Virus record (IMG/VR): IMGVR_UViG_3300009285_011519 | Span: 1 to 32,058 of that record | Strand: one strand, 5' to 3' | Source: a virus | Length of the DNA: 32,058 nucleotides | The notes under the pieces: generated by a model | The model's input: the letters and a program-made list of their open reading frames with translations, nothing else | Database searches by the model: none | Told to the model about the DNA's origin: nothing | In this document: piece after piece, positions 2,822-28,490 of the stretch | How positions within the stretch are numbered: the stretch's first letter is position 1 | Layout of the letters: each line of letters opens with the position of its first letter | Made by a program: the position numbers and the translations under genes

Positions 2822-4557
2822 TATTTTACCCAATCATCATACGCTTTTAATGCAGCTACCGCATCAGAATTTTGACTAGATTCGGATTTTTTATCACTAT
2901 CGGCGTCATAGTAAAATCTTCCAAAGGCAAAGTCGAATACTGCACTTGTTGAAACTCCTGTTTTGCGGTTTTTAATTAGCCAAATTTTAGATTGATTAGT
3001 TGAAAGTCCAAAATCATCTTTTTCTCGTCCGATAAAAAATACTGTATCCGCTTCTTGAGCAATACCTAAACTACTTCTTATATCATTTAAATCAGGAATC
3101 TTGGCATTGGTTTTGCGCACATGAACCGGAAGTAGAATAATCAATCCTCGTTTAATTGCCAATCGTTTTAAAGCACGAACTGTCTCCGTAATTGCATCCG
3201 CTGCATTAGAATAATTCCCCTTAGGTGCTCGTAAAAACCCCAAATGATCTATGCAAACAACCTTGATTCCCCATTTTACTATAGCTTTTTCTATAACGTC
3301 AACAACCCATTCTGTATCCCCGGATTCATTGAACCGTGGCATGTATATTGGCGTGTTTATATCCGCCCCCATAATCTGGAATTTTTGCCATAATGGCCTA
3401 GCTAAAACTTCATAAGAAAACCAAAGGCTTGGTAATTTTTCTCGTTTTGTTTGCCCTCCAGAAGACAATGTCACTGACCAATCTTGCATAATTGTGGTTT
3501 TTCCGCAACCCGTCTGTCCAGCCACAATCACCACATCGCCTAGGGAAAAACCACCTAATAAAACATCATCAAAGGGCTTCATATCTAGGGGAAAAAAATT
3601 TTCTGAATCAATAATCTGAAGGTCGGCAACTTCCGATGCGTGCAGTGATTCTTTGGGATCTGATTCAGCCGGAGCATTATTTGATTCAGAATGGGAATCA
3701 TCTAACTGCTTCTCCCCTTTTTCTCCTTCTGGTGCTGGCCCCCAAGTCTTATTCCCTGAAACACTTTGTGAATAATCTCTGCCGTAGGGATTAGCCCGAA
3801 CTTCTTTTTGGCCAATGGAATTCCAAATTGTGCGCACCTCATATGAAGATAATGAAGGACTATTTTTTGAATTAGCCGCTTCAAACATTTGCCAGCCGAT
3901 AGTTGCCCATAAACTGGGATGCAATTTTGCGTGGATAGAGCCTGCGAACTTTGTCATCGCATCATTACGACCACCTTCCCCGCTTCCCTGATAATCCAAA
4001 CCACTTTCAGACATTTTGGGGTAAGGAGATTGTCCAGAGGTTGCGTACCACGGTAAAACATTCCTTGACGCCTTGAGAGCCTCTAGGAAGAGTTTTTTAG
4101 TGTTTTTCGACATCTTGGCTACAGGTAGGTCATTTATCACTGTGTAGGCGCCTTTTGTAGAAGTTGAGCCTGCGGCGACAACGTAGCCCCCCTCCCCACG
4201 TTGATCGATATGAGGAAAAACTCTTACGGAGTTTTTAAATTCTGGCTCGTAGGTCAGATACCAATGTTTTCCGCCACCTCCTGTTTTTACTGTATATGTT
4301 TCATCTTTAATAAAATCCAAGTCACCATCAGCTTCAGCATCGATGACAACTAGGTTTGATATGCGCCCAGTGACTATTCCAATCTGGGCTTCAGGATATT
4401 GGTCCCACCACATCAAAAATTCCTCAGGAGTAGCCCTTTGCGTTTGAAATTTTTTCCATGTAACTAGTGGAATTTTGTTATTCCCCACAGGAATAATAGA
4501 CCACCCACGAGAAAGGTAAATAAGCGCCAATTGAATCATTTTATCCTTATTTTCCAT
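2821..4557 (-). CDS. Prim-pol/DnaB-type primase-helicase
   Basis: A 578-residue replication protein. Residues about 8-170 resemble the bifunctional primase/polymerase fold: RGWSIIPVGNNKIPLVTWK, VVIDAEAD with the metal-binding D-x-E at 73-75, and a glycine-rich KTGGGGKHWYLT. A middle linker is acidic and disordered (about 278-305). The C-terminal RecA-like motor has Walker A AGQTGCGKT (346-354), Walker B VVCIDHLG and a late HVRKT/DIRSSLGIAQEADTV region as in DnaB. It should prime and unwind the phage fork. The ATG at 4557 overlaps the HNH stop by 11 bases; the frame stays open to 4593, so a 12-residue longer form is possible. tRNA-Thr begins at its stop codon. Confidence 0.88.
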   Translation of the reverse strand: MENKDKMIQLALIYLSRGWSIIPVGNNKIPLVTWKKFQTQRATPEEFLMWWDQYPEAQIGIVTGRISNLVVIDAEADGDLDFIKDETYTVKTGGGGKHWYLTYEPEFKNSVRVFPHIDQRGEGGYVVAAGSTSTKGAYTVINDLPVAKMSKNTKKLFLEALKASRNVLPWYATSGQSPYPKMSESGLDYQGSGEGGRNDAMTKFAGSIHAKLHPSLWATIGWQMFEAANSKNSPSLSSYEVRTIWNSIGQKEVRANPYGRDYSQSVSGNKTWGPAPEGEKGEKQLDDSHSESNNAPAESDPKESLHASEVADLQIIDSENFFPLDMKPFDDVLLGGFSLGDVVIVAGQTGCGKTTIMQDWSVTLSSGGQTKREKLPSLWFSYEVLARPLWQKFQIMGADINTPIYMPRFNESGDTEWVVDVIEKAIVKWGIKVVCIDHLGFLRAPKGNYSNAADAITETVRALKRLAIKRGLIILLPVHVRKTNAKIPDLNDIRSSLGIAQEADTVFFIGREKDDFGLSTNQSKIWLIKNRKTGVSTSAVFDFAFGRFYYDADSDKKSESSQNSDAVAALKAYDDWVK

Positions 4558-5305
4558 AATAATCCGTTTTATTACTTTTTCTAATATTTTCATCCCACCA
4601 CATCGGTTGTAGGTTTGTATAATGGCAAGCTATTAAAAATTGTTCCCTACTAGTTAAATCAAAATTAGCTAAAGCTAATTTATGATCAATATGCCATCCA
4701 CGATAAGCCCAATTATCCCAACTCATTCCTGGTTGAAATTTATTCTCAATCCATATTTTTAATTCATCTATCGTACAACCTAAATCCCTCACAGCAGACC
4801 CTGCCTTATAACCCCTCTTTATTGCGTTATATAAACGATTTCTCAGCGCATCAGCTAATTTAAACTGAATATTTGTTTTTAATTTTAATTTTTTATACTT
4901 ATAGCTTTCTAATAAAAGATTTTCTTTATTTTTTACATAATATTCTTTATGATATGATAAAACTTTTTCCCTGTTGTTTACATAATATTCTTTTTGTTTT
5001 AATAAAATAGTTATCTTATTTTTTCTACAATATTCCCTACCATTTAATGAAATTCTTGCTCTATTTCTTATACACCATTTTTTATATCTTAATAAAATAT
5101 TTTCCTTATTTTTTATATAATATTCTTTATTATATAGTAAAGCGCTTGCCTTATTTTTCATACGGTATTCTCCTTGATATAATGAAATACTTTTCTCATT
5201 TTTTATTTGATACTCTTTTTGTTTTAACGAAATACTTTTCTTATTTTTTTTATAGTATTCTCTAAAATATTCCTTTTTAGATATTTTTTCAGTTAAATTA
5301 TTCAT
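4547..5305 (-). CDS. HNH endonuclease with eight 15-residue N-terminal repeats
   Basis: A 252-residue protein. Residues about 10-140 are a tandem array with period 15 (units such as KEYQIKNEKSISLYQ and KEYYIKNKENILLRY). The C-terminal domain has GWHIDHKLALANFDL and CHYTNLQPMW, an HNH-type nuclease core with the catalytic His in HIDHK. A paralog with a near-identical C-terminus lies at 24464-25090. The gene is wedged between the helicase loader (4-base gap) and the helicase (11-base overlap), which fits insertion of a free-standing homing endonuclease beside a conserved replication gene. I start at ATG 5305 rather than an earlier in-frame ATG inside the upstream gene. Confidence 0.85.
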   Translation of the reverse strand: MNNLTEKISKKEYFREYYKKNKKSISLKQKEYQIKNEKSISLYQGEYRMKNKASALLYNKEYYIKNKENILLRYKKWCIRNRARISLNGREYCRKNKITILLKQKEYYVNNREKVLSYHKEYYVKNKENLLLESYKYKKLKLKTNIQFKLADALRNRLYNAIKRGYKAGSAVRDLGCTIDELKIWIENKFQPGMSWDNWAYRGWHIDHKLALANFDLTSREQFLIACHYTNLQPMWWDENIRKSNKTDYYGK

Positions 5306-5309
5306 ATTT

Positions 5310-6008
5310 TTAATCAACACTTAATCTCTTATCCCGATCTAAAAATTCCACTATTGTGCAATACCCAAACAATCTCGATGCCAATCTTTCTCCAAAGACT
5401 GACTTAAAATTTTCTTGCTTTACATTTGTGGTTAAAATAAAAGGTAAAAATGAGTTGAAGCGCCGCTCTAGAAACATCATTAGTTTATCCAACTCAAATT
5501 CAGTAAGAGCCTTAGATGAAATATCATCAATAAAAAGAATCCCATTAAACATTCCAGAGGTGTTATTTAATTTGCTCCAAACGGAATTTAAATCATCATA
5601 GGATCCATTAAAAAATTCATTTTTGATGGTAGAAAAAGCTTCAGAATAAGTGGTCATATAAGCCACCATTTCAGGATTTTGTTTAATCAACTCATGAATC
5701 ACAGCATAGGCCGCATGGGTTTTGCCACTACCAGCCGGGCCGCAGAAAATAGTCCCAACTTTGTCATTTTCTTCAGGAGGTTTAAGCATCTCTGAAATTG
5801 CTCGATTAACAGCCACGGAATTATAACCAAGGTCTTTTATTGAAGCATTTTTAAATCGTTCTGGTATTTTAGATTCAATTAGGCTTCTCTTTTTATCAAA
5901 CATAGAATCCACGACCACAGTACAAAGCTCGATAGCCTTTCCGGGGTTATCTTTTTGCATGCGCTCGATCCTTTCATCCCTATTTTCAAAACTATAAATT
6001 GATGCCAT
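5310..6008 (-). CDS. DnaC/IstB-like AAA+ helicase loader
   Basis: A 232-residue ATPase with Walker A CGPAGSGKTHAAYA, Walker B GILFIDDIS (DD pair), sensor segment PFILTTNVKQENF and a C-terminal arginine-containing ERLASRLFGYCTIVEF. These are the hallmarks of DnaC/DnaI-type loaders that place the replicative helicase at the origin. I choose ATG 6008 because it follows the initiator stop by 4 bases with the genome-typical AAATAAATATATG leader. An upstream ATG at 6071 would overlap the initiator gene by 59 bases. The loader and helicase genes are now separated by the inserted HNH gene. Confidence 0.88.
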   Translation of the reverse strand: MASIYSFENRDERIERMQKDNPGKAIELCTVVVDSMFDKKRSLIESKIPERFKNASIKDLGYNSVAVNRAISEMLKPPEENDKVGTIFCGPAGSGKTHAAYAVIHELIKQNPEMVAYMTTYSEAFSTIKNEFFNGSYDDLNSVWSKLNNTSGMFNGILFIDDISSKALTEFELDKLMMFLERRFNSFLPFILTTNVKQENFKSVFGERLASRLFGYCTIVEFLDRDKRLSVD

Positions 6009-7990: not shown

Positions 7991-8065
7991 ATATTTTTTT
8001 TAATATAATTTAATATCCTTATTATAGCTTAGTCCCTTTAAAAAATTAAGTCAAAAGATTGCCAC

Positions 8066-8094
8066 TTGACAAAAAGTAAATAAGGGTATATATT
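8066..8094 (+). promoter_or_regulatory. Phage promoter P1 (TTGACAAAAAGTAAATAAGGG type)
   Basis: TTGACA (8066-8071), 17-base spacer AAAAGTAAATAAGGGTA, TATATT (8089-8094). The predicted start at 8101-8103 coincides with the first base of the closing stem of the RNA at 8102-8275. The spacer is almost identical to those at 10400, 19128 and 27091. Confidence 0.92.
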
Positions 8095-8948: not shown

Positions 8949-9221
8949 ATGAAAAAAATAGCAAAGTTCGATCTTAATACGGTAAAAACAGAGGATATAA
9001 TTTTTACCCATACATCATCAAGGGATTATGAAATGAGCAGGGTATATGTAATAGAAAAATTAGATAGTTTTATCGTTTTAGAAGGTAGCCATTGTTCTTG
9101 TTATGGTTTTGAAGACACAACTTGGGAGGCAATTGAATATACTGAGAAGGAAATAGAAAAATTAGCCATGCATGATGACGAAAAGTGGAAGATATTTTTA
9201 AAAGAATATTTAAATATATGA
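8949..9221 (+). CDS. Conserved small protein with SHCSCYGFEDTxWE motif
   Basis: A 90-residue protein. The block FIVLEGSHCSCYGFEDTTWEAIEYTEKEIEKL (from about residue 45) contains Cys-Ser-Cys and paired acidic/aromatic residues that recur in phage hypothetical proteins of this size. Metal binding is possible but unproven. Its TGA overlaps the RtcB ATG as ATGA, so it is translated with the ligase. Confidence 0.65.
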   Translation: MKKIAKFDLNTVKTEDIIFTHTSSRDYEMSRVYVIEKLDSFIVLEGSHCSCYGFEDTTWEAIEYTEKEIEKLAMHDDEKWKIFLKEYLNI

Positions 9222-10393
9222 AAATAATAACAACTGAAAAAATACCCATAAAAATGTGGTTAAAAGATATTGAAGACGGAGCAGTGGAACAAGCAAAACA
9301 TCTTGCTAACTTACCATCTGTGTTTAACCATATTGCAATTATGCCAGATAGCCATGTTGGCTATGGCTCCCCGATAGGTGCTGTGGTTGCGACTAGGGGT
9401 ATTATAGTCCCAAATATTGTGGGCGTGGACATCGGCTGTGGAATGTGTGCTGTAAAAACATCCTTGACAGACATTGATAAAGAAGCGCTTAAAAAAATAT
9501 TGGGAGAAATTAGGAAACAAATTCCGGTTGGGTTTGGTCATCACAAGGAGGCTCAAAATGAATTATTAATATCTCCTGAAACTGATTATGGAATGAAATT
9601 AAAAGAATATCCCATTTGCTCAGAACAATATACTTCTGCATTAAAGCAAATAGGTACTCTCGGTGGAGGCAATCATTTTATCGAAATCCAAAAAGGTTCT
9701 GATGGACATATCTGGATCATGATTCATTCTGGGTCAAGAAATTTAGGTAAACAAGTGGCCGATCATTACAATAAAATAGCTAAAGAATTAAACGCAAAAT
9801 GGTTTTCAAGAATTCCCGGAGAGTGGGATTTGGCTTTTTTACCGATAGATTCGGAGGAGGGACAATCATATATTCGAGAGATGAATTATTGCGTGGAGTT
9901 TGCTTTGTCCAATAGAAAGTTAATGATGGAACGAATATTAAATATTTTTTCACTTCATACCGATATTCAATATTTTGACCCAATAATTAATATCGCCCAC
10001 AACTACGCTAGACTTGAAAACCATATGGGTCAGAATGTAATGGTCCATAGAAAAGGAGCAACTTTGGCAGATGAAAATACCATTGGAATAGTGCCGGGCA
10101 GTCAGGGTACGAAATCGTATATCGTAAAAGGAAAAGGAAATATTGAAAGTTTTAAATCATGCTCTCATGGAGCTGGAAGAAAGATGGGAAGGAAAGATGC
10201 TGAAAGACGGCTCAATCTCGAAGAAGAAATTAAAAAGTTAGATGATCAAGGGATTCTTCATGGAATTAGAGGCAAACATGATTTGGATGAGGCTCCGGGT
10301 GCATACAAAGACGTCCAAGAAGTTATGAAAAATCAAGAAGATTTGGTCGAAATATTAGTAGAATTAAGTCCACTGGCCGTGGTAAAGGGCTAG
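9218..10393 (+). CDS. rtcB: RtcB RNA ligase (3'-phosphate/2',3'-cyclic phosphate to 5'-OH)
   Basis: A 391-residue protein covering the whole RtcB family. PDSHVGYG has H46; GVDIGCGM has the Mn-binding Cys74; GGGNHF has H153. IHSGSR has H170, HNYARLE has H261, and CSHGAGR has H317, the histidine that accepts GMP. The C-terminus is HDLDEAPGAYKDV. All catalytic residues are present. RtcB joins RNA ends made by tRNA-splicing or toxin-type cleavage; in phages it is thought to repair tRNAs cut by host anticodon nucleases. I start at 9218 because this ATG overlaps the upstream stop (ATGA); the earlier ATG at 9185 lies within the previous gene. Structured RNAs lie both upstream and just downstream. 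Confidence 0.96.
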   Translation: MKIITTEKIPIKMWLKDIEDGAVEQAKHLANLPSVFNHIAIMPDSHVGYGSPIGAVVATRGIIVPNIVGVDIGCGMCAVKTSLTDIDKEALKKILGEIRKQIPVGFGHHKEAQNELLISPETDYGMKLKEYPICSEQYTSALKQIGTLGGGNHFIEIQKGSDGHIWIMIHSGSRNLGKQVADHYNKIAKELNAKWFSRIPGEWDLAFLPIDSEEGQSYIREMNYCVEFALSNRKLMMERILNIFSLHTDIQYFDPIINIAHNYARLENHMGQNVMVHRKGATLADENTIGIVPGSQGTKSYIVKGKGNIESFKSCSHGAGRKMGRKDAERRLNLEEEIKKLDDQGILHGIRGKHDLDEAPGAYKDVQEVMKNQEDLVEILVELSPLAVVKG

Positions 10394-10399
10394 TGCCCC

Positions 10400-10428
10400 T
10401 TGACAAAAAGTAAGAATGGGTATATCTT
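10400..10428 (+). promoter_or_regulatory. Phage promoter P2
   Basis: TTGACA (10400-10405), 17-base spacer with the shared AAAAGTAAGAATGGGTA, TATCTT (10423-10428). Predicted start near 10435, just before the closing stem of the RNA at 10436-10776. It begins 7 bases after the rtcB stop. Confidence 0.88.
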
Positions 10429-13184: not shown

Positions 13185-13352
13185 ATGGGCAAGCCACGAA
13201 CTCCGGCTCAAGCCGCCAAGCAAACGGCTCGGACAGCCAGGAATAAAGTTAAAAAGTACCAAAAATTAATTACCGAGCGACCAAATGATGTTCATCGGAC
13301 ATTATGGGAGTTAGAAGCAAATACGGACATTGAAAGAAAGATGACAATATAA
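13185..13352 (+). CDS. Small basic helical protein
   Basis: A 55-residue protein (MGKPRTPAQAAKQTARTARNKVKKYQKLITERPND...). It is alanine/arginine-rich at the N-terminus, like a short DNA- or RNA-binding tail, and its codon use is more G+C-rich than its neighbours'. The stop lies in the first bases of the 30-base repeat that starts at 13351. No family recognised. Confidence 0.55.
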   Translation: MGKPRTPAQAAKQTARTARNKVKKYQKLITERPNDVHRTLWELEANTDIERKMTI

Positions 13353-13380
13353 TCCTTGCCAATTATTAAAGGAACTAGAG
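13351..13380 (+). repeat. Direct repeat, copy 1
   Basis: 30 bases that recur at 14020-14049 with one mismatch (AGGAAC versus AGGAAA). The last 11 bases (AGGAACTAGAG) recur again at 13546-13556. It may also pair with the inverted arm at 13726-13745. Confidence 0.85.
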
Positions 13381-13545
13381 AGTGTAATTTGTTTCTTAAA
13401 ACCGTGGGTTCTAACAAGGGTCGCAGACTATTAGAACATCTGGCCTCGCTTCCAACGGCTGAAGAGCTTTAAGCGAAACACACAAGTGTCCCGTGGAGTC
13501 TCCCCAGCGAGGGAATAACTGGAGACCTAGGCGACCCACGATTTT
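13381..13545 (+). ncRNA. Compact structured RNA, apparently inserted between short direct repeats
   Basis: CGTGGGT (about 13403-13409) pairs with ACCCACG (13534-13540) to close the element. Inside are GTTCTAA/TTAGAAC (13408-13437), a CTCGCTT/AAGCG stem (13444-13477), ACAC/GTGT and GTCTCC/GGAGAC (13498-13526). It is clearly richer in G+C than surrounding DNA and has no open frame. It is bordered by AGGAACTAGAG and AGGAAATAGAG. The joined flanks rebuild the uninterrupted copy at 14020-14056, so it looks like an insertion. Confidence 0.65.
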
Positions 13546-13605
13546 AGGAAATAGAGTTTATAATTAAGAATATGGGAGCTAAGATAACTTTAATCCTTAT
13601 AATAT

Positions 13606-13713: not shown

Positions 13714-13725
13714 ATTATAAGTTCT

Positions 13726-14044
13726 TTTCCTTTAATAATTGTGGCGGAATAGTCGTTAGCATATACGCCAAGAGGGGAATACTCGGATAGTTCAAACACC
13801 TATTGCTTCCGAAGGTCAACCTTTTTTGGCTGTTAAGAGATGGTGTTTCCACAATGTATGCCAAAAAGTAGACGCTGAAAAAGGAGTAAACAATTTAGCA
13901 ATAGCGTGATTGTAGGATTCTGCCGAATATTCTGGAATAAGGCAGGACATTCAAAAAATGCCTATTTCAATCCATATAATCAGAGATGCTAATAGAGACT
14001 TATGCAAGGTGAAAACGGAAATCCTTGCCAATTATTAAAGGAAA
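13726..14044 (+). ncRNA. Large structured RNA, about 320 bases, with 18-bp closing stem
   Basis: The arm 13726-13745 (TTTCCTTTAATAATTG-T-GGC) pairs with 14027-14044 over 18 bases with one bulge; outside it TTATAA/TTATAA extends the helix. Internal stems include GGCG/CGCC (about 13743-13770), AACACC/GGTGTT (about 13796-13849), AAGGT/ACCTT, and CTGCC/GGCAG (about 13919-13945). No open frame covers it. Its 3' arm is the copy-2 direct repeat. No known RNA class recognised. Confidence 0.65.
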
Positions 14045-14049
14045 TAGAG
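14020..14049 (+). repeat. Direct repeat, copy 2
   Basis: Matches copy 1 at 13351-13380 in 29 of 30 bases. It continues as TTTATAA identically to the third partial copy at 13546-13563. It forms the 3' arm of the closing stem of the RNA at 13726-14044. Confidence 0.85.
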
Positions 14050-14067
14050 TTTATAAAAATTATATTT

Positions 14068-18308: not shown

Positions 18309-19124
18309 ATGAAGAATAAACTCTTACAATATACTCTCATTATAATCGGAATCATCTTCTTGGTTTTTTGCGTCATTGCCATTTCTGATTATTTTTCCAA
18401 ACAAGAATCTCAAAGAAAACTGGAAAATAAAATTCTGACTGAAAAATTAAATGAAACCACAAAAAGATTAGAAACGATAGAAACTGAAAAAGCCAAGAAA
18501 GAATTAACCACAGCCGAAATAGCTAAGGAGTGGTCACCTCAAGTTCCCAAGATAGTTTGTTATTGGTTTTATTCAGATGGCGAATTATCTGCCACTATGT
18601 CTGGTTCGGGATTTCTAACTGACCTTACGGATATGGAAATTTCCGTCATGACCAATAAACACATTATTCTTGATAGTGAGGGATTTGTGGCAGAATTTTG
18701 TATGATATTTTTTTTAGATGATGAAAATTATACCATATATGAATCAAATGAGGACTTTTATTATTCACCATCCAAAGACAAGGCTCTCTTGGTTCTTAGT
18801 GGTATAAGTCAGAAAACCAGAGATCTTGTTAAAATTAGAAGAGGTTATTACTGTACTAAACGACCAGATATTGGGGAAAAGATTGTAGTTTTGGGTTATC
18901 CTGGCATTGGTTCGGGTGAGGGAATTACAGCTACAGAAGGTATAATTTCCGGTTATGACGGTGATTATTATATTGTTTCAGCTAAAATGGATGTAGGGAA
19001 TTCTGGAGGCATAGCCGTTAGTGTTAAAGACAATTGTATCATAGGTATGCCTAGTGCTTCTAGGGGAGGGGGATTGGAAAGCTTGGGTCGGATACTTTCT
19101 TCTAGGGTCTTGATCGGAGAATGA
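18309..19124 (+). CDS. Membrane-anchored trypsin-like serine protease
   Basis: A 271-residue protein. Residues 8-26 form an N-terminal transmembrane or signal-anchor helix, 30-70 a coiled coil, and from about 80 a chymotrypsin fold. The catalytic triad is visible: H118 in TNKHII, D157 in SKDKAL and S232 in VGNSGG. GSGF at 99-102 is the typical strand before the His. It lacks a PDZ domain, unlike DegP. It should act outside the cytoplasmic membrane, perhaps on host envelope or superinfecting-phage proteins; this target is a guess. It is the last gene before promoter P4. Confidence 0.85.
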   Translation: MKNKLLQYTLIIIGIIFLVFCVIAISDYFSKQESQRKLENKILTEKLNETTKRLETIETEKAKKELTTAEIAKEWSPQVPKIVCYWFYSDGELSATMSGSGFLTDLTDMEISVMTNKHIILDSEGFVAEFCMIFFLDDENYTIYESNEDFYYSPSKDKALLVLSGISQKTRDLVKIRRGYYCTKRPDIGEKIVVLGYPGIGSGEGITATEGIISGYDGDYYIVSAKMDVGNSGGIAVSVKDNCIIGMPSASRGGGLESLGRILSSRVLIGE

Positions 19125-19127
19125 CAT

Positions 19128-19156
19128 TTGACAAAAAGTAAGAAAGGGTATAGAGT
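19128..19156 (+). promoter_or_regulatory. Phage promoter P4
   Basis: TTGACA (19128-19133), 17-base spacer AAAAGTAAGAAAGGGTA, TAGAGT (19151-19156). Predicted start near 19163. It starts 4 bases after the protease stop. Confidence 0.82.
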
Positions 19157-19177
19157 TAATTTATATGAAAATAAAAT

Positions 19178-20981: not shown

Positions 20982-21659
20982 ATGAATATGACAGAGGCTG
21001 GGAGGCAAAAAACCAGAGAAAGAATGTTGAAGGATAATCCAATGAAGAAAGAATCTGTCAGACTTAAAAGTGCAAGAAATCATCTTGGTCAAATTGCTTG
21101 GAATAAAGGAATAAACTCAGAGGAATATAAAAAACATTATCCAGGTGGCATTAAAGGTGGTAGGCCACCTGGATATAAACATACTATAGCGTCTAAGAAA
21201 AAAATGTCAGAAATACGAATCCGTATGTTGGCTACCGGAGAAACCAAGTTGGGTCGAATGGGTCTTGAAGATTTAGAAAAAAATCGTGAAAGGATGAGAA
21301 AAAATAGAAAAAATCTGGATTTTAATCAAAAAATGTCAGCATCCTTTTTAACAAAAGTAACTAAACCCCATCTCAAAATTCAAGAAATACTAAAAGATGA
21401 AGGAATAAAAACAGAAACAAATATGGCATTTTTATTTGGAAGTAGATATGGGAGTATTGATGAAGTGGATTCTAATAAAAAGATAGCCATTTATATAGAT
21501 GGAAATTATTGGCATAAATATCCTGAGGGTCGTCGTTGGGATAGATATTGCACAAAAGTTCTTGAAAACCTAGGTTGGAAGGTAATCCGGTTATGGGAAT
21601 CAGAAATAAATGAAGATATTGAAAAATGCAGACAAAAGATAAAAAAATACTTTGAATAG
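20982..21659 (+). CDS. Vsr-like (EDxHD) homing endonuclease with NUMOD3-like DNA-binding region
   Basis: A 225-residue protein. The N-terminal half is basic with NUMOD3-like turns (TRERMLKDNPMKKE, GRPPGYKHTIASKKKMSE). The C-terminal domain has IDEVDSNKKIAIYIDGNYWHKYPEGR, then WDRYCTKVLENLGWKVIRLWESEI, as in very-short-patch-repair-like nucleases and the I-Bth0305I group. Free-standing, it sits between the SPFH gene (4-base gap) and a terminator, as a mobile endonuclease would. Confidence 0.8.
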   Translation: MNMTEAGRQKTRERMLKDNPMKKESVRLKSARNHLGQIAWNKGINSEEYKKHYPGGIKGGRPPGYKHTIASKKKMSEIRIRMLATGETKLGRMGLEDLEKNRERMRKNRKNLDFNQKMSASFLTKVTKPHLKIQEILKDEGIKTETNMAFLFGSRYGSIDEVDSNKKIAIYIDGNYWHKYPEGRRWDRYCTKVLENLGWKVIRLWESEINEDIEKCRQKIKKYFE

Positions 21660-23199: not shown

Positions 23200-23210
23200 A
23201 AAATTGCCAC

Positions 23211-23238
23211 TTGACAAAAAGAAAATAACTGTTAAACT
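23211..23238 (+). promoter_or_regulatory. Phage promoter P5, gives a leaderless mRNA
   Basis: TTGACA (23211-23216), 16-base spacer AAAAGAAAATAACTGT, TAAACT (23233-23238). The ATG at 23245 lies six bases after the -10 box, as at P3. Confidence 0.78.
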
Positions 23239-24463: not shown

Positions 24464-25090
24464 ATGAGCACACAAAAAGAGGGAAGTAGAAAGCATTATT
24501 TAAAAAATAAAGAAAAGATGTGTGAACGATCGAGATTATGGTATAAAGAAAATCCTGAAAAAAGAAAAGTCACTAAGAGAAAGTATTATATTTTGCATAA
24601 AGATGAAATTTTAAAAAGAGAAAAATTATGGAGGCTGAAAAATCCAGAACAAAATAGATTATTGAAAAATAAGTGGGCCGCAAAAAATAGAAAATACTTA
24701 TGTTTAAAGAGTAAAAAACGACATAAGGAATATCCGGAATATTTTAGAAATTGGAATAGAATGCAACGAATAAATAACATAAACTTTAAGATTCGTTCGA
24801 ACTTAAGAAACCGCCTATATATGGCCATAAAAGTCGGCTGTAGGGCTGGTTCTGCGGTACATGATCTTGGGTGTTCTATAGAAGAATTAAAAATTTATTT
24901 AGAAAAACAATTCCAGTTAGGAATGACATGGAATAACTGGTCTCGGGTAGGTTGGCATATTGATCATAAAATGGCTTTAGCTAATTTTGATTTAACAAAC
25001 AGAGAACAATTCTTAATAGCATGTCATTACACAAATCTTCAGCCAATGTGGGCTATAAATAATCTTAAAAAGGGTAATAAAATCATATGA
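24464..25090 (+). CDS. HNH endonuclease, paralog of the one at 4547-5305
   Basis: A 208-residue protein. The N-terminal half has degenerate KNKEK/RLWYKENPEKR repeats. The C-terminal domain RNRLYMAIKVGCRAGSAVHDLGCSIEEL, then WHIDHKMALANFDLTNREQFLIACHYTNLQPMW, is almost the same as in the minus-strand paralog. The catalytic His is in HIDHK. It ends in an ATGA overlap with recA, so it sits next to a conserved DNA-metabolism gene, as the paralog does beside the helicase. Confidence 0.87.
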   Translation: MSTQKEGSRKHYLKNKEKMCERSRLWYKENPEKRKVTKRKYYILHKDEILKREKLWRLKNPEQNRLLKNKWAAKNRKYLCLKSKKRHKEYPEYFRNWNRMQRINNINFKIRSNLRNRLYMAIKVGCRAGSAVHDLGCSIEELKIYLEKQFQLGMTWNNWSRVGWHIDHKMALANFDLTNREQFLIACHYTNLQPMWAINNLKKGNKII

Positions 25091-27084: not shown

Positions 27085-27090
27085 TGACAC

Positions 27091-27119
27091 TTGACAAAAA
27101 GTAAATAAGGGTATAGAAT
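27091..27119 (+). promoter_or_regulatory. Phage promoter P6
   Basis: TTGACA (27091-27096), the same 17-base spacer as P1 (AAAAGTAAATAAGGGTA), TAGAAT (27114-27119). Start near 27126. The 68-base leader begins near a short hairpin AAGATAA/TTATCTT (27121-27149). Confidence 0.9.
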
Positions 27120-27193
27120 TAAGATAATAGATAATGGTCGATTTATCTTTCATAATATAATAAAGTAATAAATTAATAACTTAATAAAATCAT

Positions 27194-27920: not shown

Positions 27921-28490
27921 ATGGATACCAATACCCAACAACAGGACAACGAGGAATGGAGATCTGTTGTTGGGTATGAGGGTTCGTATGAAGTTAGTAG
28001 TCTTGGCAGGGTGAGGAGCTTAGATCATATGTCTACCAATAAGACTCCTAGTAGGAGAATCCGAAAGGGAATAATTAAAGGAAAAATATCAATTCCCAGA
28101 GTTCATACCGGCGGATATTTAAGGTATTCACTAAAACCACACGGTAAGGATGTCTACGCTCATCGATTAGTCGCCTTAGCATTTTTATCTCAGAGGAATA
28201 AGAGTCATAATCAAGTGAATCATAAGGATGGGGATAAAAAAAATAATAATGTATCTAATCTCGAGTGGGTCAGCTTAAAGGATAATCATCGCCATTCATG
28301 GATGATTGGTCTTTCAAAAGCTACTCCACGGAATACCCGTATGCCAAAACTTAAACCTAAAGATATATTAGAGATAAGATCGTTATACGCAACAATGCAA
28401 CCCTCTTATAAAAAAATCGCCAAAATATATAAGGTTTCAGGCAATACAATAATGAGGGTTGTTAAAAGTATAACATGGAAAAATATATGA
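27921..28490 (+). CDS. NUMOD4-HNH homing endonuclease
   Basis: A 189-residue protein with NUMOD4 start EEWRSVVGYEGSYEVSSLGRVRSL (about 11-34), an HNH core YAHRLVALAFL...NQVNHKDGDKKNNNVSNLEWVS (about 75-118) and a C-terminal helix-turn-helix PSYKKIAKIYKVSGNTIMRVV. The His in NHKDG is catalytic. A free-standing insertion between the P6 gene and the phosphoesterase; ATATGA couples it to the next gene. Confidence 0.92.
   Translation: MDTNTQQQDNEEWRSVVGYEGSYEVSSLGRVRSLDHMSTNKTPSRRIRKGIIKGKISIPRVHTGGYLRYSLKPHGKDVYAHRLVALAFLSQRNKSHNQVNHKDGDKKNNNVSNLEWVSLKDNHRHSWMIGLSKATPRNTRMPKLKPKDILEIRSLYATMQPSYKKIAKIYKVSGNTIMRVVKSITWKNI

Follow-up and report, generated by a model that had tools for sequence, protein, structure and literature searches.

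The window, by which we mean the whole 32,058-nucleotide stretch analysed (record IMGVR_UViG_3300009285_011519), is a phage record with genes for a DnaB-like helicase, an RtcB-type RNA ligase (9185-10393), RecA/UvsX and an endolysin. It also carries a homing-endonuclease-like gene (20982-21659, PHROG match), four ORFs of HNH- or LAGLIDADG-like appearance, judged by eye (590-1003, 4547-5320, 24464-25090 and 27921-28490) and dispersed, mutually matching repeats of 25-48 bp (8060-8094, 10394-10428, 19118-19165, 23200-23228 and 27088-27121), possibly promoter-like intergenic repeats. Inside a run of plus-strand genes, with no adjoining -10 box or tRNA, lies a 165-nt block with a G+C content of 49%, as compared to 35% for the window. 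The first-pass annotation had described this block as a structured RNA lacking its own protein, inserted between 11-base repeats. As set out below, the discrete, protein-less structured RNA is borne out, while the insertion is not.

Architecture of the RNA and its family

The block is a member of a family of small phage RNAs with two interlocking pseudoknots, a family that is widespread and apparently undescribed. The 95-nt core consists of two similar halves, each made up of NCGUGG, a hairpin, a conserved linker and a tail, and the loop of each half pairs with the tail of the other (pseudoknots alpha and beta). In most members a hammerhead ribozyme motif is located exactly between the two halves. 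In order to describe the fold we used alignment A1, which comprises 45 non-redundant hammerhead-bearing members and in which 33 pairs in eight helices were scored. The parts of the window's RNA, all on the plus strand, are the following:

13388-13555 (+): whole RNA including the closing helix P1, from the family alignment and P1 statistics
13388-13401 (+): P1 5' strand UUUGUUUCUUAAAA, pairing with 13542-13555 through 11 Watson-Crick and 3 G-U pairs; also in the minimum free energy (MFE) fold
13402-13408 (+): start of half 1, N1CGUGGG (here CCGUGGG); CGUGGG invariant in 45/45, in a search that was itself anchored on GUGGG
13408-13437 (+): hairpin A (stem 13408-13414/13431-13437); 99.6% of cells paired, two-sided changes in 4 of 5 counted pairs
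13418-13424 (+): alpha strand GGGUCGC in loop A, pairing with 13531-13537; 7 of 7 pairs covary
13436-13443 (+): conserved linker ACAUCUGG, near-invariant
13444-13449 (+): beta strand CCUCGC, pairing with 13507-13512 in loop B; 98% paired, two-sided changes in 4 pairs, also found by RNAalifold
13455-13494 (+): type I hammerhead ribozyme, predicted cut 13490^13491; core conserved in relatives, stems covary, sub-threshold match to Rfam RF02275. Layout: stem I ACGG/CCGU, CUGAAGA, stem II GCU/AGC, GAAA, stem III ACAC/GUGU, C17
13491-13499 (+): start of half 2, N2CGUGGAGU, the expected 5'-OH end after cleavage; from alignment A1, with GGAGU part of the search pattern
13499-13525 (+): hairpin B, with conserved GGGAAUAACUG at 13511-13521; 100% paired, two-sided changes in 3 of 5 pairs
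13531-13537 (+): alpha' strand GCGACCC, from the alpha pairing statistics and covariation
13542-13555 (+): P1 3' strand UUUUAGGAAAUAGA, from the P1 statistics; it overlaps the right-hand 11-base repeat

Distant blastn matched the block in phages of Arthrobacter, Mycobacterium, Enterobacter and Pectobacterium. Relatives were gathered with a pattern derived from the conserved hairpin B (GGAGT-N-GGGAATAACTG-N-ACC), so that the conservation of the hairpin B letters is partly by construction; alpha, beta, stem A and the hammerhead stems were no part of the pattern. It is found in at least 119 stretches of viral contigs, and the rest of the structure is present in about 120 of the 126 pattern matches listed, in phage and prophage DNA from hosts of many phyla. 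Among prokaryotic genomes, taken as one per species, 13 of the 14 pattern matches are genuine, coming from Burkholderia, Pseudomonas, Rhizobiales, Clostridia, Bacilli, Gemmatimonadales and an archaeal bin; among the carriers are E. coli prophages and two laboratory phages, Karkharias of Arthrobacter and Gaia of Mycobacterium. Plasmids gave no match for the RNA. The core matches no Rfam family at gathering or permissive thresholds and is absent from Rfam 15. A literature search, with subscription journals and bioRxiv outside its scope, retrieved no description of the family, which argues only weakly for its novelty. The hammerheads of PaP3 and Bcep176 had been tested previously; both lack the core and were rejected as members.

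The evidence for the structure is comparative. In A1, 93.4% of the cells are paired and the covariation score is 0.657, as compared to 0.168 for shuffled and at most 0.13 for slid alignments, and RNAalifold, supplied with no structure, recovered stem A, beta and hammerhead stems I-III. Independently of A1, alpha can form with at least 6 Watson-Crick pairs in 83 of 87 elements (5% in the null), comprising 75 distinct helices, and beta in 80 of 87 (20% in the null). P1, just outside the core, reaches at least 7 Watson-Crick pairs in 53% of the relatives, the window included, versus 6% in the null. Folding energy is not what supports the structure: by MFE alone the block is unexceptional (z -0.1, and z -1.5 with flanks).

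The family is variable in its composition. Of 81 non-redundant standard members, 13 are compact (94-97 nt) and have no hammerhead, as is also the case for L092, so that about 17% of the standard copies are ribozyme-less; L041 and L049 carry variant or decayed hammerheads. Cleavage is therefore not needed for the action of the core. Another 13 non-redundant members are circularly permuted, with the hammerhead and half 2 coming first and half 1 following a P1-equivalent hairpin. On one phage contig two ribozyme-less core copies stand in tandem (L025:200-443).

The hammerhead and the shared 5' ends of the two halves

The first-pass annotation had allowed for a catalytic RNA, proposing a test for self-splicing, and a hammerhead core is indeed located within the block. 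Read by eye, the window contains all core nucleotides (ACGG-CUGAAGA-GCUUUAAGC-GAAA-CACACAAGUGU-C^CCGU), including the type I residues C3 U4 G5 A6 N7 G8 A9, G12 A13 A14, the A15.1-U16.1 pair and H17. A hammerhead consensus search gave one match in the window and none in 100 shuffles. A permissive Rfam scan placed a weak Hammerhead_HH9 match at 13455-13494 (17.3 bits, E 0.59, against a gathering threshold of 52 bits), and Rfam hammerhead models give sub-threshold matches at the same spot in the window, L010, L094, L106 and L131. In A1, UGA, A9, GAAA and U16.1 are present in 45/45 members. C3 together with G8 occurs in 43/45; the remaining 2/45 carry U3/A8, a compensatory change reported to be active (PMC3088659). 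Position 17 is C in 27, A in 14, U in 4 and G in none. Stems I, II and III are present, with stem I open, and all three covary, stem II being short with 71.9% of cells paired over its two counted pairs. The core pattern thus behaves as expected of a working ribozyme, and cleavage is predicted from this core. Tandem hammerheads of the retrozyme or circular RNA type were not seen, the window and the copies inspected each having a single one.

The base that precedes CGUGG is identical in both halves (N1 = N2) in 78 of 81 standard members, where shuffling predicts 33, and in 12 of 12 permuted copies. Three members depart from the rule: the locus edge truncates L052, L085 is apparently mis-assigned, and the third, L129, may be a remnant. 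Within A1, N1 is linked to no columns other than N2 and N2's mate in stem I, and a symmetric-partner scan of A1 for anything beyond these two yielded nothing. The coupling is one of identity, not of complementarity. Stem I could pair with the 5' end of either half, and with that of half 1 over all 4 positions in 53 of 62 cases.

One way to account for the N1 = N2 rule is an exchange of strands, in which the stem I strand, once cleavage has occurred, would re-pair with the N1CGUGG end of half 1 and ligate it, giving a circular RNA. The pairing potential just described, the rule itself in standard and permuted copies and the RtcB-type ligase encoded by the window's phage all speak for such a process, and the substrates of RtcB-type ligases match hammerhead cleavage ends. 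Against it, ribozyme-less copies follow the rule as well (17 of 19 by the script's count) and retrozyme-like tandem ribozymes are absent. RtcB is encoded by only 6 of 50 contigs with no link to the ribozyme, and it was rejected as an obligate partner. We consider circularization by strand exchange unlikely. A broader and still tentative proposal, which we would put at somewhat less than even odds, is that of a split phage RNA machine: a pseudo-twofold RNA whose two half-RNAs would be deliberately separated by the hammerhead and bear the same NCGUGG 5' ends, with N1 = N2 resulting either from strand exchange and ligation by the ribozyme or from a host partner that touches both ends.

Flanking repeats and the spread of the RNA

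The reading of the block as an inserted element was founded on its flanks. The left repeat AGGAACTAGAG (13370-13380) and the right repeat AGGAAATAGAG (13546-13556) are where the first-pass annotation placed them, with the letters it gave; flanking repeats are thus present, but they are inexact, matching at 10 of 11 positions. Joining 13351-13380 to 13557-13563 does rebuild the sequence at 14020-14056, with 36 of 37 positions matching. The insertion reading nevertheless fails, as the repeat on the right belongs to the closing helix of the RNA, of which it forms the 3' strand. In addition, AGGAAATAGAG with at most one mismatch occurs 8 times in the window (1.3 expected), four exact occurrences lying within 1.2 kb, and is therefore a recurrent local motif rather than a pair unique to the block. 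The 32-kb record holds a single copy of the block, and no such repeats occur in other family members, in which P1, adjoining tRNAs or apparent sigma70 promoters mark the boundaries. Empty sites were sought among related phages: L042 is the same phage as the window (99.985% identity), and the element is missing from relatives of the next gene, which have too little synteny to serve. Insertion with target-site duplication is, in our estimation, very improbable. As to self-insertion by splicing, the catalytic motif appears to be of the self-cleaving hammerhead type rather than that of a splicing intron. Group I and group II introns were rejected, with no Rfam intron model matching in the window.

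There is support elsewhere for mobility in a looser sense, as permuted copies appear to be exchanged among enterobacterial prophages. Copies that share 94-98% identity with that of the Enterobacter phage over 195 bp are present in 15 E. coli chromosomes, in differing flanking sequence. In sister phages and other prophages the enterobacterial frame AACAGGTAAGAGC...GCTCTTTCCGTTG encloses unrelated inserts in place of the permuted element, or tRNAs occupy the same site, and in viral contigs this frame holds 68 different inserts of 37-55 nt in 38 clusters. Hypervariable frame loci were recorded in L181-L300 (viral contigs), L154 and L176-L180; in E. coli prophages they lie at the Q-holin site, where one prophage has tRNA-Asn and tRNA-Thr (L177:366-521) at the spot that holds the hammerhead RNA in others. 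For the permuted enterobacterial type, this pattern supports homologous exchange of an RNA cassette and not transposition with target-site duplication.

The window contains a second structured stretch at 13714-14056 (361-nt fold, z = -4.0), closed by a near-perfect 28-bp inverted repeat, for which no relative was found outside the same phage. Its 3' end is common with that of the hammerhead RNA, and the frame sequence AGGAAATAGAGTTTATAA shared by the two fits cassette exchange without proving it. A general model in which homologous recombination within shared frame sequences replaces one structured RNA by another can draw on this sharing and on the constant enterobacterial frame with its alternative contents; as the exchange is seen only for the permuted enterobacterial type, and as it would account for spread and not for function, we regard it as possible but doubtful.

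Genomic context, proposed role and known systems

A tRNA lies within 150 nt of 28 of 120 elements, compared with 5% of positions drawn at random from these loci, and the 40 tRNAs within 1 kb of elements all share the strand of the element. Five members have the 3' end of a tRNA 2-3 nt upstream of CGUGGG, and several more show a T-arm there by eye. Streptomyces phage phiSASD1 has a truncated copy with hairpin A of half 1 only, right after an apparent tRNA 3' end (L161:901-938). A strong, correctly spaced -10 box is present in 8 of the 33 members that lack both a tRNA and P1, as opposed to 1 of 47 in the other classes. The neighbouring genes differ between phages, and no fixed neighbour was seen. 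The tRNA and promoter contexts, together with these varying neighbours, lead us to infer that the RNA is a unit of its own that acts in trans.

On this basis we favour, at a probability of roughly 0.7, a noncoding phage RNA that stands alone and cleaves itself, the two resulting pieces remaining associated through the pseudoknots. The RNA would be made as its own unit, from its own promoter, within a tRNA array or as a P1-flanked transcript. The hammerhead would then cut after C13490. Half 1 plus the ribozyme would end in a 2',3'-cyclic phosphate, and half 2 would begin with the 5'-OH end CCGUGGAGU, so that the 5' ends of the two halves would be equivalent. The pseudoknots and P1 would keep the pieces together as a nicked two-piece RNA, which would act in trans during infection.

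A role in cis, with the hammerhead splitting a polycistronic phage mRNA and the structured halves capping and protecting the new 3' and 5' ends, is the kind of function that Perreault et al. proposed for prophage hammerheads (PMC3088659). It would suit the position of the RNA in the lambdoid prophages of E. coli, where the late operon begins with it between the Q and holin genes. Two pseudoknots that keep the halves joined, the existence of ribozyme-less copies, the many copies in tRNA arrays or beside their own promoter and the lack of a fixed neighbouring gene all argue the other way, and we judge such processing rather unlikely. A role in packaging, like that of phi29 pRNA, was suggested by several copies adjoining terminase or portal genes, which were frequent in an initial sample of large ORFs nearby. 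Once distance was controlled for, genes for head packaging were no commoner near the RNA (2/20) than far from it (4/20), which makes this reading extremely remote.

The purpose of phage-borne hammerheads has been open since their discovery in prophages. Here the ribozyme is part of a conserved RNA whose architecture can be defined, whose ends are clear and which occurs naturally in ribozyme-less and permuted forms, and this makes the question testable. Provided that the structure is correct, the known phage RNAs gain an abundant family that spans phages of several bacterial phyla and has no entry in Rfam 15.

Among known systems, GOLLD and ROOL are likewise structured phage RNAs with pseudoknots, often near tRNA genes and without an assigned function; a recent structural paper still describes them, near phage tRNA islands, as having no known function (PMC12286853). 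They are, however, hundreds of nucleotides long, whereas the family described here measures about 95-170 nt, there is no sequence match, and they are not known to contain a hammerhead. Membership in either was rejected, as their Rfam models match neither the window nor its relatives. Theta ribozymes are a self-cleaving class that is also associated with phage tRNAs (PMC10879173), but their fold is HDV-like instead of a hammerhead, and no HDV-type Rfam model matches in the window or its relatives. Non-circularly permuted hammerheads and HRIMA motifs (PMC10085705) equally combine hammerheads with pseudoknots; there the ribozyme itself is rearranged, while here the type I core is ordinary and the surrounding RNA is circularly permuted. 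The closest resemblance in core, three stems, H17, topology and phage setting is to the type I hammerheads (RF00163, RF02275), including those of prophages (Perreault et al., 2011, PMC3088659), from which the present ones differ in their setting: they occupy a fixed junction within a conserved RNA with two pseudoknots, and this RNA also occurs without the ribozyme.
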